A stretch of DNA of 64,000 bases from Pseudorhodobacter wandonensis (lineage in GTDB: Bacteria; Pseudomonadota; Alphaproteobacteria; Rhodobacterales; Rhodobacteraceae), in NCBI RefSeq assembly GCF_001202035.1, contig NZ_LGHT01000025.1, positions 248,001 to 312,000 on the forward strand, read 5' to 3'. Below, one piece after another: positions 37,887 to 43,972 of the stretch; position 1 is the stretch's first letter; the number at the start of each line of letters is the position of its first letter. The position numbers were made by a program, and so were the translations under genes. Under the pieces are notes generated by a model that saw only the letters and a program-made list of their open reading frames with translations, did no database searches and had not been told where the DNA came from.

Positions 37887-38816
37887 GTGGACGCCCCGCT
37901 CTATAATGACTTGGCGCAAGGCCCCGCAGGGGGCCGCGCCTATTGGCTCACCGCCAAAGATGGCACACGCCTGCGTATGGCGGCATGGCCTGGCGGTGAC
38001 AAAGGAACAGTTTTGCTGTTTCCGGGGCGGACAGAATACATTGAAAAATACGGGCGCGTCGCTGCAGAGTTTGCAGCGCGTGGCTATGGTTGCGTGGCCA
38101 TCGACTGGCGTGGACAAGGGTTATCGGACCGGCCAAAACCAGACCCGATGGTTGGCCATATTGAAAAATTCTCCAATTATCAATTAGACTTACAAGCCGT
38201 TCTTGCCAAACTGGATGAGCTTTCCCTGACAGGTCCGCTCTACCTAGTGGCACATTCGATGGGCGGCTGCATCGGCCTACGGGCTTTGCTGAACGGGCTG
38301 AATGTCAAGGCGGCGGCCTTCACCGCACCAATGTGGGGCATTCGGATGGCGCCCGGCTTGGCCCCTGTCGCGCGGATGGTGGCCCGTACCGCGCGCGCTT
38401 TAGGCCAGGGACATCGCTATGCGCCCGGGACCAACGGCGATACTTACGTCAACACATTTCCCTATTTCGGCAATGTCCTGACACGAGACGCCGAAACCTA
38501 TGCCTGGATGCAAAACCAACTGAAACAACAACCCTCACTGGCCTTGGGCGGCCCCGGCCTTCATTGGCTGGATGAGGCGATGCACGAATGCCGCAATCTG
38601 GCAAACCTGCCCTCACCCGATCTTGCTTGCCTGTGTTTTTTGGGGGCCGAGGAAAAAGTCGTCGATCCCTTGCCCATTCATGACCGAATGGCGCGCTGGC
38701 CCAAAGGAAATCTGGTCCTTGTTCCAAACGCCGAGCATGAAATCATGATGGAAATACCCTCAACCCGACAACAGTTCTTTGAAATGACGACGGAACTCTT
38801 CCAGAAAAACACCTAA
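37887..38816 (+). CDS. alpha/beta hydrolase (monoacylglycerol lipase / lysophospholipase PldB-like)
   Basis: 309 residues of the hydrolase-4 type. The oxyanion region is LFPGRTEYIEKYG, DWRGQGLSDRP follows, the nucleophile elbow is AHSMGGCIG and the catalytic His lies in PNAEHEIMME. There is no signal peptide, so it is cytoplasmic. The start is GTG 37887, 3 bp after the SCP2 stop codon. By family it hydrolyses mono-acyl lipids, and pairing with an SCP2 lipid binder supports this. Repeat element C begins 4 bp past the stop codon. Confidence 0.87.
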   Translation: MDAPLYNDLAQGPAGGRAYWLTAKDGTRLRMAAWPGGDKGTVLLFPGRTEYIEKYGRVAAEFAARGYGCVAIDWRGQGLSDRPKPDPMVGHIEKFSNYQLDLQAVLAKLDELSLTGPLYLVAHSMGGCIGLRALLNGLNVKAAAFTAPMWGIRMAPGLAPVARMVARTARALGQGHRYAPGTNGDTYVNTFPYFGNVLTRDAETYAWMQNQLKQQPSLALGGPGLHWLDEAMHECRNLANLPSPDLACLCFLGAEEKVVDPLPIHDRMARWPKGNLVLVPNAEHEIMMEIPSTRQQFFEMTTELFQKNT

Positions 38817-38906: not shown

Positions 38907-39815
38907 CTATAGTTCCTTGGGCAAAAGCACATATTCCGCTTTGGCGCGCCCCGCAAAATAGTCCAGAATGTTCTGGGCTGCCATCATTCCCATGCGCCGA
39001 AACGCCCCTGCCGACAACGTGGCCGCATGCGGCGTCAAGATCACATTCGGCGTGCGTCGCAAAGGGTCATCCATTGGCAACGGCTCGGTCACTGTGACAT
39101 CCAGACCCGCCCCGCCCAAATGGCCAGCGTTCAGCGCGTCGATCAACGCAGCCTCATCCACCAGCCCGCCGCGGGCGCAATTGACCAACAAAGCCCCCAC
39201 AGGCATCTGCGCAAAAGCCTCGGCTGCAAACAAGTTTTGGGTTTGTGCTGTCAACGGGCAATGCAGGCTGACCACGTCGGCAAAGGGCAGCGCCTTGCCT
39301 AAATCAGGCGCAACCGGATAGCCCAAATGCCGCGCTTCCTTTAAATCGCGCGAATGGATTGTCACATTCATCCCCAATGCCTTGGCCAGTGCCGCGACAC
39401 GCTTGCCTGTCGCACCAAAGCCGACAATCAACAGCCGACGCCCCTCTAAGCCCAACACTTGCGATGCAGCTTGGCCTGGCGCAACAGATCGTTGGCCATC
39501 AAGATTGCGCGCCAGGGCCAACATCAGCAGAATTGTCTGCTCTGCTACCGCAGCTGCATTCGCACCCGGGGTGTTCATCACCGTCACACCTGCCAACGCC
39601 GCAGCAGACATGGCGATGTTGTCGACACCAACCCCGTGTTTGGAAATCATCTGGTATTGCGCAACGTCTTGTGCCGAAACTCCACAGGTCCGAACCAGCA
39701 GTGCATCGGCTGGTTGCATGGGCATATCGGGGCCGATGACCGTAAAGCCTTCGTCACGCAACAATGCCAGCGCATCAGGATGGACAGGTTCGGTGACAAA
39801 AACGGTTCGCTCCAT
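38907..39815 (-). CDS. D-2-hydroxyacid dehydrogenase (SerA-like)
   Basis: 302-residue NAD(P)-dependent 2-hydroxyacid dehydrogenase. The Rossmann loop is LIVGFGATGKRVAALAKALG, the catalytic Arg lies in NCARGGLVDE, the Glu in VTVTEPLP and the His in ILTPHAAT. No ACT domain is fused, so it is not a standard SerA. Its ATG overlaps the Anbu stop codon by one base (TGATG), so it is translated as the last gene of the Anbu operon. The substrate is unknown. The coupling suggests that it may act in the same pathway, which is inference. Confidence 0.88.
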   Translation of the reverse strand: MERTVFVTEPVHPDALALLRDEGFTVIGPDMPMQPADALLVRTCGVSAQDVAQYQMISKHGVGVDNIAMSAAALAGVTVMNTPGANAAAVAEQTILLMLALARNLDGQRSVAPGQAASQVLGLEGRRLLIVGFGATGKRVAALAKALGMNVTIHSRDLKEARHLGYPVAPDLGKALPFADVVSLHCPLTAQTQNLFAAEAFAQMPVGALLVNCARGGLVDEAALIDALNAGHLGGAGLDVTVTEPLPMDDPLRRTPNVILTPHAATLSAGAFRRMGMMAAQNILDYFAGRAKAEYVLLPKEL

Positions 39816-40537
39816 CAGAGTTCAATCTGCGAAAAGCCGTCGCGCAAAGCGCCTGACCATGCTTCAGACATTGCACGAAACGATTCGTCGCCGGCTTCAA
39901 TCCGACGGCGTTGGCTTACGCGGCAGTCATCCCGTTCAATAATTGCCAAATCCAGCGGCATGCCCACAGACAGGTTCGAACGCAGGGTCGAATCCATCGA
40001 CAGCAACACAGCCTTTTGCGCGTCTTTCAGGCTGGTATGGGTTGTAACCACACGGTCGAGAATCGGCTTACCGTATTTATGCTCACCAATCTGCAGGAAC
40101 GGGGTGTCTTCGGTTGCTTCGATATAATTGCCTTCAGGATAGACCAGAAACATGCGCATCGCCCCCCCCCTTCGCTGCCCGGCCACGATCATCGACGCCG
40201 AGGCCGCCTGCAGCATCGACAGCTTTTGTCCGATATCCACGCGCACTTCGGCCAGCTTGGCGCCAACGATATCGACCACCTTTAGCATGGTTTCGGCCTT
40301 CATGATCGACGTTTCCGGTGTTGAATCCGGATCATCTGCAATTTCACGCAGGCGGGCCATCGTGGTTTGCGTGACCGACAGGCTGCCCGCGGTCAGGATG
40401 GTAATCACACGGTCGCCCGGTTCCTCGAACACGAACATCTTGCGATAGGTGGCAATGTTATCCAGCCCCGCATTGGTGCGCGTATCTGACAGCAGCACGA
40501 TACCTGCATCCAGCAAAAGGCCAACACAATATGTCAT
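39815..40537 (-). CDS. Anbu proteasome-like peptidase (ancestral beta subunit)
   Basis: 240-residue Ntn-hydrolase of the 20S/HslV superfamily. It begins MTYCVGLLLDAGIVLLSDTRTNAG, so removal of Met leaves Thr as N-terminal nucleophile. Conserved Asp/Ser in SDTRTNAG and the GSLSVTQ region are as in Anbu. Anbu forms open ring- or spiral-like assemblies with poorly known natural substrates. ATG 40537 is fixed by the required N-terminal Thr, which excludes an in-frame start 15 bp upstream. A tract of nine G on the coding strand (40162-40170) lies mid-gene, in frame. Confidence 0.93.
   Translation of the reverse strand: MTYCVGLLLDAGIVLLSDTRTNAGLDNIATYRKMFVFEEPGDRVITILTAGSLSVTQTTMARLREIADDPDSTPETSIMKAETMLKVVDIVGAKLAEVRVDIGQKLSMLQAASASMIVAGQRRGGAMRMFLVYPEGNYIEATEDTPFLQIGEHKYGKPILDRVVTTHTSLKDAQKAVLLSMDSTLRSNLSVGMPLDLAIIERDDCRVSQRRRIEAGDESFRAMSEAWSGALRDGFSQIEL
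40162..40170. repeat. C9/G9 homopolymer within the Anbu gene
   Basis: Nine consecutive C on the plus strand (nine G on the coding strand), encoding the Gly-Gly region of QRRGGAMRMF. In frame at this length. A one-base slip would truncate or alter the second half of the peptidase. Confidence 0.9.
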
Positions 40538-40570
40538 AGATGCTCCACCCAAAGACGCTAAACGTAACTG

Positions 40571-41380
40571 CTACTGCTCGCTTTGCTGAACTTCAAGCTT
40601 TACGTCAAGCGACTCGGCGCCTTGGCCGCGCGCGGTGCCTTTTATCGGGGCCGCGTCCATCGCATCAAGGCCCGATCCGAGCCGGATATAGCGTTCATCC
40701 GGCGAGCAACGATTCGCAGGGTCAAACCCGACCCAGCCCAACCCTTCCAGCCACAGCTCGGCCCAGGCATGCGCCGCTTCATGTGCTGCTCCGTCTTGGG
40801 TCGAATGCAAATAGCCCGAGACATAACGCGCAGGAATGTTATTGCGCCGCGCAAGAACCAAAAGCGCGTGTGTCTGGTCTTGGCAAACGCCTTTGCCTTG
40901 TGCCAAAGCCTCAGCCGCCGTTGTCATAGCGTGGGTAGTGCCTGTGCGATAGGTAATAGTATCTGAAACCAGCGCTGAAAGGCCATGGGCCAACGCCAAT
41001 CCATTGTCATCGGCGTCAACGGAATCGGCCAGTTCTGCCAAGGCCATGTCGGCCGTAGTGGCTGCGGTAGCGCCCAGATAACATTGCGGCGGCACTTTTT
41101 CCTTATGACCGCGCAGCACACCGACCAAATCTGTGGTTTCAACTTTGCCGCGCACGGTTACAGTGATCTCAGACACGGGGCCTTGAACAGTCCACGCCTG
41201 AATATGATCGCCTGCGCCATCGACAAAGCTGCCACCGCGGATGCCGTCACTGACGATAACCTCCCAATTCAGGACTCGTTGGCCATCGAATTTTGAAGGC
41301 GTCAAACGGTGGCTTTGTACCACGCCCCGCACGGGCTGGCTATAGCGGTACAGCGTTACATGATCGACAGTCAGCAGCAT
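40571..41380 (-). CDS. bacterial transglutaminase-like cysteine protease
   Basis: 269 residues. An N-terminal transglutaminase-N beta domain (VTLYRYSQPVRGVVQSHRL) is followed by the transglutaminase core with catalytic Cys in GKGVCQDQTHALLVLAR, His in AAHEAAHAWAELWLEG and Asp in VGFDPANR. No signal peptide, so cytoplasmic. The ATG overlaps the alpha-E gene stop codon by one base (TAATG). This is the usual partner of Anbu, proposed to act in synthesis or processing of a peptide or peptide tag. Confidence 0.92.
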   Translation of the reverse strand: MLLTVDHVTLYRYSQPVRGVVQSHRLTPSKFDGQRVLNWEVIVSDGIRGGSFVDGAGDHIQAWTVQGPVSEITVTVRGKVETTDLVGVLRGHKEKVPPQCYLGATAATTADMALAELADSVDADDNGLALAHGLSALVSDTITYRTGTTHAMTTAAEALAQGKGVCQDQTHALLVLARRNNIPARYVSGYLHSTQDGAAHEAAHAWAELWLEGLGWVGFDPANRCSPDERYIRLGSGLDAMDAAPIKGTARGQGAESLDVKLEVQQSEQ

Positions 41381-42330
41381 TACCGAATATCCCCGTTCAG
41401 ATAGCTTTCATGAATTTCAAACGCCAGTTTGCCGGTTTGCTGGATAAACCGCGAGAGAAACTCGTGCAGGCCCTCGTCAAAAATGTCACCAACCTCAGCC
41501 TCGGCCAATTCGGCCAGCAATGACCGCGCTTGCGAGCGGGCCGTGCTTTTGCGCCGATACCCACGATCAAGCCGTTCCAGATGCGTGACCATGCCATCAA
41601 CACAGGTCAGCAAAGAGCGCGGGCATTGCGGATTGAGGATCAGAAAATGCCCGATCTTACGCGCCGTTACATCGCCACCATAGGCCCAATGAAAGGCGCG
41701 GTGAGACGACATGGCGCGCAAAAGCGTGGTCCATTGATAGTTATCCAAACCCGAACCAACAAAATCGACACGCGGCAGCAAGACGTAATACTTCACATCC
41801 AACAGGCGGGCCGTACTGTCTGCACGCTCCAGATAATAGCCGAGGTTCATGAAATCATACCCATCGCCGCGCAGTTGTGTCGCCTCGATGGCGCCGCGCA
41901 TCATCGCGGTTTGGCGCATGGTCCACTCGGTCAGGCGGCTCAGATCCAGCTCGGATCGTGGCTGTCGTTCCATCTGCCGCAGATCTTGAAACGCGGCATT
42001 TATGGCATCCCACACCTGGCTGGTCAGCGCTGTGCGCACGATGCGGGCATTTTCACGCGCTGCCGTGATGCAAGAAACCACCGACGAAGGGTTGTCGCGG
42101 TCAAAGAACAAGTGGCTTTCAATGTTGCGCTGCACCGGATCGCCGTATTTCTCCTTGAACGCGGCGGCCGTGCCAATGGCGTGCAGCAGGCTGTCCCATT
42201 CGCTGCGGTGACCATGCGCCGAAGGGATCAGCGAGTTGCGCGCCCCCACCTCCATCAAACGGGCGGCGGTTTCCGCGCGTTCCATATAGCGCGCGATCCA
42301 GAACAGATTGTCGGCGGTTCTACTTAGCAT
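41380..42330 (-). CDS. alpha-E domain protein
   Basis: 316 residues, nearly all alpha-helical, starting MLSRTADNLFWIARYMERAE, the signature of the alpha-E family. The family always travels with the circularly permuted ATP-grasp enzyme and is thought to assist it, possibly binding the product or tRNA-like or peptide substrate. The biochemical role is not known. It starts 4 bp after the ATP-grasp stop codon. Confidence 0.92.
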   Translation of the reverse strand: MLSRTADNLFWIARYMERAETAARLMEVGARNSLIPSAHGHRSEWDSLLHAIGTAAAFKEKYGDPVQRNIESHLFFDRDNPSSVVSCITAARENARIVRTALTSQVWDAINAAFQDLRQMERQPRSELDLSRLTEWTMRQTAMMRGAIEATQLRGDGYDFMNLGYYLERADSTARLLDVKYYVLLPRVDFVGSGLDNYQWTTLLRAMSSHRAFHWAYGGDVTARKIGHFLILNPQCPRSLLTCVDGMVTHLERLDRGYRRKSTARSQARSLLAELAEAEVGDIFDEGLHEFLSRFIQQTGKLAFEIHESYLNGDIR

Positions 42331-42334
42331 ATCA

Positions 42335-43747
42335 TTACCCCGCCAATACCCAAGTGTCTTTTACCCCGCCACCTTGTGACGAGTTCACAACCAGTGACCC
42401 CTCGGTCAGTGCCACGCGCGTCAGGCCACCCGGCACCAGTTCGGCACGCTCACCCACAAGGCAGTATGGCCGCAGATCAACGTGGCGCGGGGCGATGCCT
42501 TGGTCCACAAAGGTCGGCGTGGTTGACAGCGCCAACGTGGGTTGCGCGATGTAATTATGCGGCTTGGCCTTGATGCGCTTGGCAAAATCCTCAATTTCGG
42601 CCTTGGTCGATTTGGGGCCAACAAGCATACCGTAACCGCCCGAGCCATGAACCTCTTTGACGACAAGTTCTTTCAGATTATCCAGCACATATTTGCAATC
42701 ATCCGCCTTGGCACATTGCCACGTCGGGACGTTGTTCAAAATAGGCTCCTCGCCCAGATAAAAGCGGATCATCTCCGGCACGAATGTATAAACAGCCTTG
42801 TCGTCGGCCACCCCTGCGCCCGGTGCAGAACAAATCGACACGCCGCCCGAACGGTACACATCCATTAAACCCGGCACGCCCAGCATGGAATCGGGGCGGA
42901 AGCACAAAGGATCGATGAAATCATCATCAATCCGGCGGTAAATCACATCCACGCGGCGCGGGCCTTCGGTGGTGCGCATATAGACAAACTCGCCTTCGAC
43001 AAACAAATCCTGCCCCTCGACCAGTTCGACCCCCATCAGATCGGCCAAAAAGCTGTGTTCATAATAGGCCGAGTTGAAGTGACCCGGCGTCAAGATAACA
43101 ATCACCGGCTCGCCCTTGCATTTGCTGGGCGCAACCGAGGCCAATGTACGGCGCAGCAGGTCGGGGTAAACATCTACCGGCTCAATCCGGTTTTCGCGGA
43201 ACAGGGCGGGGAACATCCGCATCATGATCTCGCGGTTTTCCAGCATGTAGGACACGCCCGAAGGCGTGCGGCAATTGTCTTCAAGAACAAAAAAATCCTC
43301 AGGCCCGGTGCGAACCAGATCAACACCAACGATATGCGAATAAACGCCTTTGGGTGGCAAAAAGCCTACGACCGATTTTTCATAGGCTGCATTTTGATAA
43401 ACCAGATTGGCCGGAATGCGGCCTGCACGCACAATCTCGCCCCGCCCATACACATCGGCCAGAAAGGCGTTCAACGCGCGGGCCCGTTGCTTGACGCCGC
43501 GTTCCAGCTTTGCCCATTCAAAAGCCGAAAACACGCGGGGAAACATATCAAAAGGGATAAGCCGGTCAGGGTCGCCGCCCTCGCCATAGACGGCAAAGGT
43601 TATGCCGATGCGGCGAAACAGCGCCTCGGCCTCGGCCTGTTTCATCTGCTGCAATTCGGCGGGCATGTTGCGCATCCACTCATCAAGCTGGGCATAAGGC
43701 GCGCGAACCTGTCCACCGTCATACATCTCATTGAAATAGTTGGTCAT
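42335..43747 (-). CDS. circularly permuted ATP-grasp amidoligase (type 2)
   Basis: 470 residues. FDMFPRVFSAFEWAKLERGV, then RIDDDFIDPLCFRPDS and GSGGYGMLVGPKSTKAE are characteristic of the permuted ATP-grasp clan that forms amide bonds. Acidic Mg2+ and ATP-binding residues are conserved in the VVKEVHGSGGYG loop. It is first in the operon with alpha-E, transglutaminase, Anbu and a dehydrogenase. Genomic work on this clan suggests synthesis of a small peptide or peptide tag, so the combination looks like a make-and-process system. The leader upstream contains a long-range CCCCTGTC/GACAGGGG pair. Confidence 0.93.
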   Translation of the reverse strand: MTNYFNEMYDGGQVRAPYAQLDEWMRNMPAELQQMKQAEAEALFRRIGITFAVYGEGGDPDRLIPFDMFPRVFSAFEWAKLERGVKQRARALNAFLADVYGRGEIVRAGRIPANLVYQNAAYEKSVVGFLPPKGVYSHIVGVDLVRTGPEDFFVLEDNCRTPSGVSYMLENREIMMRMFPALFRENRIEPVDVYPDLLRRTLASVAPSKCKGEPVIVILTPGHFNSAYYEHSFLADLMGVELVEGQDLFVEGEFVYMRTTEGPRRVDVIYRRIDDDFIDPLCFRPDSMLGVPGLMDVYRSGGVSICSAPGAGVADDKAVYTFVPEMIRFYLGEEPILNNVPTWQCAKADDCKYVLDNLKELVVKEVHGSGGYGMLVGPKSTKAEIEDFAKRIKAKPHNYIAQPTLALSTTPTFVDQGIAPRHVDLRPYCLVGERAELVPGGLTRVALTEGSLVVNSSQGGGVKDTWVLAG

Positions 43748-43972
43748 GTAGGTGATGTCCCCCTGTCAGGCCAGGCAATTTGGGGCCTTGCGTTAGGGAT
43801 AGTAAGACAGGGGTTTAACAGAAAGGAAAGAGTGACGCGCTGTTTTTTGGCGCGGCATCCAAGGGTGCGCCCAAAATTTAGGCGCCAGCCCTCAAAGCAG
43901 TTTTTGGCGGGCGGGGTTGCGCAAGTTGGGGCAGCACCCCTAGATAGGTACAAATGAAAAAGAGGTTTGCCC

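Follow-up and report, generated by a model that had tools for sequence, protein, structure and literature searches.

A D-2-hydroxyacid dehydrogenase gene recurrently paired with the Anbu operon in one lineage of the Rhodobacterales

In the genome of Pseudorhodobacter wandonensis, a gene for a D-2-hydroxyacid dehydrogenase (DH) directly follows the gene for the proteasome-like protein Anbu, at the end of a four-gene Anbu operon. The locus lies within a 64,000-nucleotide stretch of contig NZ_LGHT01000025.1 (positions 248,001 to 312,000), the whole of which is here referred to as the window. The gene pair is real and recurrent, but it is confined to one lineage, and its partners are separable. 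With somewhat better than even confidence, it is proposed that DH was acquired once and has a 2-oxo-acid role of its own, sharing only its expression with the Anbu proteins.

Distribution, origin and separability of the gene pair

Two overlapping samples were used to follow DH and Anbu. The first held 196 genomes, all from the family of the window, with DH orthologues defined by E values below 1e-70 (next best 6.6e-52). Anbu was found in 145 of these genomes and a DH orthologue in six, each time as the next gene after Anbu. By identity to the Anbu of the window, the Anbu proteins of this sample fell into two types, at least 68% (41 genomes, "same type") versus 42-57%. The second sample held 394 genomes from 393 genera (DH at E below 1e-125, next 2e-85; same-type Anbu at E up to 1e-90, lowest identity 64%). 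Seven of its genomes carried a DH orthologue and 95 a same-type Anbu; both were present in six, always adjacent, and DH occurred without a same-type Anbu in one (G477, the genome of locus L084). Across the phylum, Anbu was present in 119 of 349 genomes. Outside the family, 100 of 103 Anbu loci were fetched, some shortened by contig ends, and 74 of the 100 have all four operon genes within ~5 kb when the window proteins serve as queries. None of these 100 loci has a D-2-hydroxyacid dehydrogenase directly after Anbu, and three (L160, L166, and L172) have one within ~5 kb, so a general association between Anbu and such dehydrogenases was rejected. DH is not a regular member of the Anbu operon: within the family it comes after Anbu for 6 of the 41 and 6 of the 95 genes of the same type, and outside the family no such dehydrogenase comes directly after Anbu at the 100 fetched loci. 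The three loci just named belong to one family, with the dehydrogenase 1.9-3.0 kb downstream of Anbu and SerA-like by open-frame length only. As a separate observation, L149 (G743) and L150 (G710), also outside the family, encode Anbu proteins with 58% and 62% identity to that of the window (other listed matches, 37-51%), which could reflect horizontal transfer.

A wider search took the best 80 of 475 DH relatives, from which a tree of 52 sequences was built (51 loci and the window, 29 loci being left out). The DH orthologues form a single clade of 25 including the window (support 100/99), and the labels of its 24 other loci read Paracoccaceae or Roseobacteraceae in 22 cases and Proteobacteria only in two (L082 and L094). 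Anbu is the next gene upstream in 19 of the 25, the operon is not there in five, and L072 begins inside DH. No Anbu operon gene was detected beside the other 56 loci among the best 80 (tblastn, E 1e-6, flanks up to 6 kb, shorter at contig ends). According to record titles, the Anbu-DH pair occurs in Pseudorhodobacter, Szabonella, Allgaiera, Acidimangrovimonas, and Solirhodobacter, and in metagenome-assembled genomes (MAGs) labelled Gemmobacter and Defluviimonas. The original prediction, made from the window alone, would have taken as support a recurrence of the pair in distant genera with the same overlap of stop and start codon (TGATG), and as refutation its restriction to this genus. Recurrence of the pair beyond Pseudorhodobacter, e.g., in Szabonella, Allgaiera, Acidimangrovimonas, and Solirhodobacter, was borne out; the genera nevertheless belong to one lineage, and the exact TGATG is present in 4 of 19 readable genomes, namely, the window, P. 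ferrugineus, Pseudorhodobacter sp. E13, and one MAG (L094) of another genus.

The four operon proteins were concatenated for a second tree, made by a quick method from 53 rows (18 with DH, 30 same-type without it, and 5 other-type as outgroup); not entered were six loci carrying fewer than three of the genes, five duplicates, and additional outgroup rows. On this tree, 3 changes of the DH label are required, 2 of them forced by well-supported branches, as compared with a shuffled mean of 15.1, where 17 of the 18 DH rows had been picked for having DH and L017 was counted as lacking it. All DH rows fall inside one 28-row group (support 91). Together, the DH and operon trees suggest a single acquisition of DH. 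No support came for a plasmid origin: there was a single match, of 40% identity and just at the E 1e-40 limit.

Each partner has been found without the other. L017 retains a 5' remnant of DH split between two frames, with 51% identity over 51 residues in one and 56% over 34 in the other; the remnant starts at the same TGATG and lies between Anbu and a convergent hydrolase gene; since this broken remnant stands beside four open operon genes, DH was lost here and the operon retained. Conversely, L080, L084, L086, L088, and L089 (Actibacterium, Rhodovulum, and a MAG) carry DH with no operon next to it; they form one sub-clade (100/99) nested inside the operon-bearing DH sequences. In L080, L084, and L086, DH is kept between the M3 peptidase and hydrolase genes, and in L088 and L089 on the M3 side only. 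The former place of the operon is nearly empty in L080 and L084; in L086 and L088 it is taken up by other divergent genes, named by eye as a DNA ligase and a metallo-beta-lactamase-fold exonuclease. An Anbu of 47-57% identity is encoded elsewhere in four of the five genomes; the genome of L084 gave no Anbu match at E 1e-5 and no Alpha-E match, the completeness of these genomes not being stated. The nonsynonymous rate (dN) is below the synonymous rate (dS) in 10 of 10 DH pairs with or without the operon, e.g., 0.217 vs 1.566 for the operon-linked pair of the window and L070, and 0.038 vs 0.172 (L088/L089) and 0.268 vs 0.784 (L084/L086) for operon-less pairs. DH has therefore been maintained as a functional protein both with and without the operon.

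The locus and the Anbu-DH junction

The features of the locus in the window are as follows.

42335..43747, minus strand: circularly permuted ATP-grasp protein (CP_ATPgrasp_2), gene 1 of the Anbu operon; Pfam PF14403, E 1.9e-166
41380..42330, minus strand: Alpha-E protein; Pfam PF04168, E 7.8e-90
40571..41380, minus strand: transglutaminase-like protein, overlapping the Alpha-E gene by 1 base; Pfam PF01841 and PF08379
39815..40537, minus strand, ATG at 40537: Anbu, a proteasome-like N-terminal nucleophile (Ntn) hydrolase; Pfam Proteasome and Anbu matches in PDB
39813..39817, minus strand: TGATG, in which the Anbu stop and the DH start share one base, read from the sequence; likewise in L070, L071, L094, and the DH remnant of L017
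38907..39815, minus strand: D-2-hydroxyacid dehydrogenase (DH), 302 aa; Pfam PF02826, E 1.9e-51, and PF00389, E 3.2e-16; AlphaFold2 mean pLDDT 93.9
43748..43966, no strand: intergenic region between the operon and a divergent M3 oligopeptidase gene, expected site of the operon promoter by position only
37887..38816, plus strand: alpha/beta hydrolase (Pfam), convergent with the operon; its end marks the slot occupied by DH

The order ATP-grasp, Alpha-E, transglutaminase, Anbu is that of the published Anbu operon as given in the available portions of PMC6376114 and PMC5666114. The window has all four genes in this order on one strand, with short junctions of 4 bp (ATP-grasp/Alpha-E), a 1-base overlap (TAATG; Alpha-E/transglutaminase), and 33 bp (transglutaminase/Anbu), and it differs by an overlapping fifth gene, DH, at the 3' end. 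Both the four-gene layout and the base shared by the Anbu stop and DH start (39817-39813) were described in the original prediction and agree with the coordinates, and Pfam assigns all five genes, DH included. Its statement that the four genes are a conserved operon whose product is not established also accords with the literature: within the available text, PMC6376114 did not see peptidase or amidase activity and leaves functional hypotheses unconfirmed, PMC8665760 gives the operon no known function, and PMC5666114 names the finding of substrates as a future task. The Anbu of the window matches PDB Anbu entries with E 3.5e-73 (a designed entry) and 5.3e-69 (the next), and, provided that Met is removed, it carries Thr1, Asp17, and Lys32, which the available part of PMC6376114 names as candidate catalytic residues. 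By word counts, "dehydrogenase" appears 0 times in the main texts of PMC5666114, PMC6376114, and PMC8665760, and no paper pairing Anbu with a hydroxyacid dehydrogenase was found in the open-licence PMC literature. The operon of PMC12239564 was set aside as a comparison, as its available text concerns a different ATP-grasp/transglutaminase operon. A second Alpha-E is encoded elsewhere in the genome of the window (G000:C4:83671-84504) within a 787-residue open frame, and is probably a fused paralogue.

The junctions make it very likely that DH is co-transcribed with Anbu and, where the two genes overlap, DH is probably translated by re-initiation. The operon promoter is placed by position alone because a sigma-70 consensus scan lists no site in 43748..43966 (4 found overall vs 2.8 expected, no excess). 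The fold 3' of DH is no stronger than those of shuffled sequences (z -0.51), and a terminator consensus scan gave no excess (5 found vs 7.2 expected). In 17 of the 19 readable genomes, the distance from the Anbu stop to the DH start is between -4 and +16 bp; the values for all 19 are distributed as follows.

-4 bp: L069, L075, and L085; L074 at -4 or +2
-1 bp: window, L070, L071, and L094
0 bp: L073 and L087
+1 bp: L079, read by eye
+3 bp: L076, L082, and L104
+6 bp: L077
+7 bp: L090
+16 bp: L083
+90 bp: L078
+139 bp: L081

An alternative second DH start is possible in L071, L074, L075, L078, and L081. The exact TGATG overlap is weak evidence by itself, because 2 of the 35 fetched same-type loci that lack an intact DH also have it at the Anbu stop, the L017 remnant being one of the two. 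In 12 of these 35 loci no more than 25 bp separate the end of the convergent hydrolase gene from the Anbu stop, and DH is thus an extra gene in the Anbu-hydrolase slot.

Several observations concern the same neighborhood in relatives. In L047 (6130-7017), a gene of the fumarylacetoacetate-hydrolase family lies 54 bp after Anbu and before the convergent hydrolase gene, i.e., in the slot held elsewhere by DH; this family also acts on keto-acid compounds. A malic enzyme/phosphotransacetylase fusion lies downstream of Anbu on the same strand in L032, L038, and L041. In L036 and L038, which represent a family other than that of L160, L166, and L172, a D-2-hydroxyacid dehydrogenase that is SerA-like by length only is found 5.7-6.0 kb upstream of Anbu. 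Anbu occurs without ATP-grasp, Alpha-E, and transglutaminase genes in the fetched flanks of L035 (G106), L039 (G151), L040 (G052), L045 (G185), L048 (G165), and L068 (G186), and Alpha-E is present elsewhere in five of these six genomes (G151, G052, G185, G165, and G186), none being found in G106.

Identity of the dehydrogenase

With both Pfam domains and an Arg-Glu-His triad, DH belongs to the 2-hydroxyacid dehydrogenase (2HADH) family. The triad (Arg215, Glu244, and His263), Gly132 and Gly134, as well as Arg42, Lys59, His60, and Asn86, are invariant in all 23 aligned orthologues. In the AlphaFold2 model, which was computed from the orthologue alignment, Arg42 is at the start of the beta3-alpha3 loop, Lys59 is the last residue of beta4, and His60 is the first of the loop that follows; according to the available text of PMC6303947, the beta3-alpha3 site bears the phosphate-binding Arg of SERA enzymes. 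Judged by these residues, DH is probably active and reduces a small 2-oxo acid with an extra negative charge. Residue 155 falls in the column of the Asp of 1wwk, where all 23 orthologues have Ser, Ala, or His and none has Asp; the DH of the window reads Ser155-Arg156, with Arg156 shared by 17 of the 23. DH probably uses NADP(H), and perhaps prefers it, a missing Asp after betaB being read in the same portion of PMC6303947 as a sign of possible NADPH preference.

The closest relatives of DH by score are in the SERA subfamily of 3-phosphoglycerate dehydrogenases (PMC6303947), with which it shares the Arg at beta3-alpha3 and the triad. It departs from the subfamily, as far as the available text of that paper describes it, at three points: the beta4-alpha4 Arg of SERA types I and III gives way to Lys59-His60, the Arg-Ser motif has Thr, Ile, or Val at its Ser position, and the NAD-type Asp is lacking. 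No further Pfam domain is present in its 302 aa. The best NCBIfam match is TIGR01327, the phosphoglycerate dehydrogenase (PGDH) model, and the best solved relative bears the same enzyme name; the score, however, is 205 bits and far under the cut-off of 454, and a separate canonical full SerA (669 bits) is encoded elsewhere in the genome of the window. On these two grounds DH is not a serine-pathway enzyme, and serine synthesis was rejected as its role. In common with the glyoxylate/hydroxypyruvate reductases GHRA, GHRB, and GHRC, DH lacks the NAD-type Asp and has, by eye, Ser-Arg after betaB in 11 of 23 orthologues; the DH of the window scores lower, however, on the GhrB (115 bits) and GhrA (67.5 bits) models than on the PGDH model (205 bits). 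The GHRA NADP(H) fingerprint [ST]R[ST]X[RK] is complete, by eye, in 2 of 23 orthologues (L071 and L078), and SRDLK of the window departs from it at one position.

Explanations for the pairing

In the scenario favored here, an ancestor of part of the Rhodobacterales would have acquired a D-2-hydroxyacid dehydrogenase gene once, and this gene would have taken the last position in an otherwise ordinary Anbu operon, with Anbu on one side and the convergent hydrolase gene on the other. DH would serve its own piece of 2-oxo-acid metabolism and have only expression in common with the Anbu proteins, so that either partner could be lost alone. DH seems to have originated once, is often absent, has decayed next to the operon, and persists where the operon is missing; on these grounds it is unlikely to be a required step of an Anbu pathway or of a shared product. 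As for the functional coupling put forward in the original prediction, the recurrent tight pairing stands, but most sampled same-type Anbu genes lack DH and each partner is separable; the peptide cap or depsipeptide-like product that it named as examples is conjectural.

Several points weigh against this scenario. In the second sample, DH co-occurs with same-type Anbu (6 of 7 vs 89 of 387 genomes, Fisher p 0.001, with related genomes not being independent). That 17 of the 19 readable genomes hold the junction to 16 bp or less suggests that co-expression is worth keeping. Because the five operon-less genomes form one sub-clade, retention of DH without the operon is one event, a single loss of the operon, and not five. 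Thirteen alignment columns separate these five from the other 18 DH sequences, among them 155, 186, and 214, where Ser/Ala155 to His, Cys186 to Leu, and Ala214 to Gly became fixed near the cofactor and catalytic sites; DH could have changed its job after operon loss, and any single clade has such columns. Furthermore, the DH and operon trees disagree, in that L090 and L104 branch first in the DH clade and lie inside on the operon tree, with L077 also in conflict, so transfer instead of one clean acquisition is possible.

Some of this evidence would fit a lineage-specific accessory enzyme of the Anbu pathway, which makes or removes a 2-hydroxy or 2-keto group on an amide-linked product, such that the products of DH-bearing and DH-less operons differ. 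The position is conserved and the junction tight across several genera, all six DH orthologues of operon-bearing genomes in each sample adjoin Anbu, and the residue shifts near the active site arose in the operon-less sub-clade. Solved relatives of DH include chains named McyI, presumably after a cyanobacterial peptide gene cluster, and such enzymes occur in peptide pathways. An accessory role is a real but minor possibility, as DH survives without the operon, has decayed beside four operon genes in L017, and has no counterpart directly after Anbu in the 100 loci outside the family. A more specific version, in which the Anbu pathway of one Rhodobacterales branch makes a peptide-like product with a 2-hydroxy or 2-oxo acid whose redox state is set by DH, and in which the Actibacterium and Rhodovulum DH was re-targeted after operon loss and left with the changes at 155, 186, and 214, must be called doubtful. 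DH may instead have landed behind Anbu as a neutral hitch-hiker, expressed by read-through across a drifting junction and without benefit from co-expression. Junction lengths from -4 to +139 bp would agree with this, as would other genes in the slot, e.g., the fumarylacetoacetate-hydrolase family gene (L047) and the malic enzyme fusion (L032, L038, and L041); neutrality is nonetheless rather improbable in view of the 17 short junctions and of dN below dS in every pair. A role as a 3-phosphoglycerate dehydrogenase in serine synthesis, with DH present here by chance, is highly improbable: the name of its best model and of its best solved relative would favor such a role, but the low score, the short protein, the missing Asp and beta4-alpha4 Arg, and the full SerA in the genome speak against it. 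An independently used 2-oxo-acid enzyme that shares only expression with Anbu thus continues to be the favored reading.

If a metabolic enzyme were regularly attached to the Anbu operon, it would give a chemical clue of a rare kind to what the operon does. According to this survey the clue is real, yet it comes from one lineage only and from separable partners. Operons with DH, operons without DH, and DH without the operon are available as natural comparisons and are usable for metabolite work.

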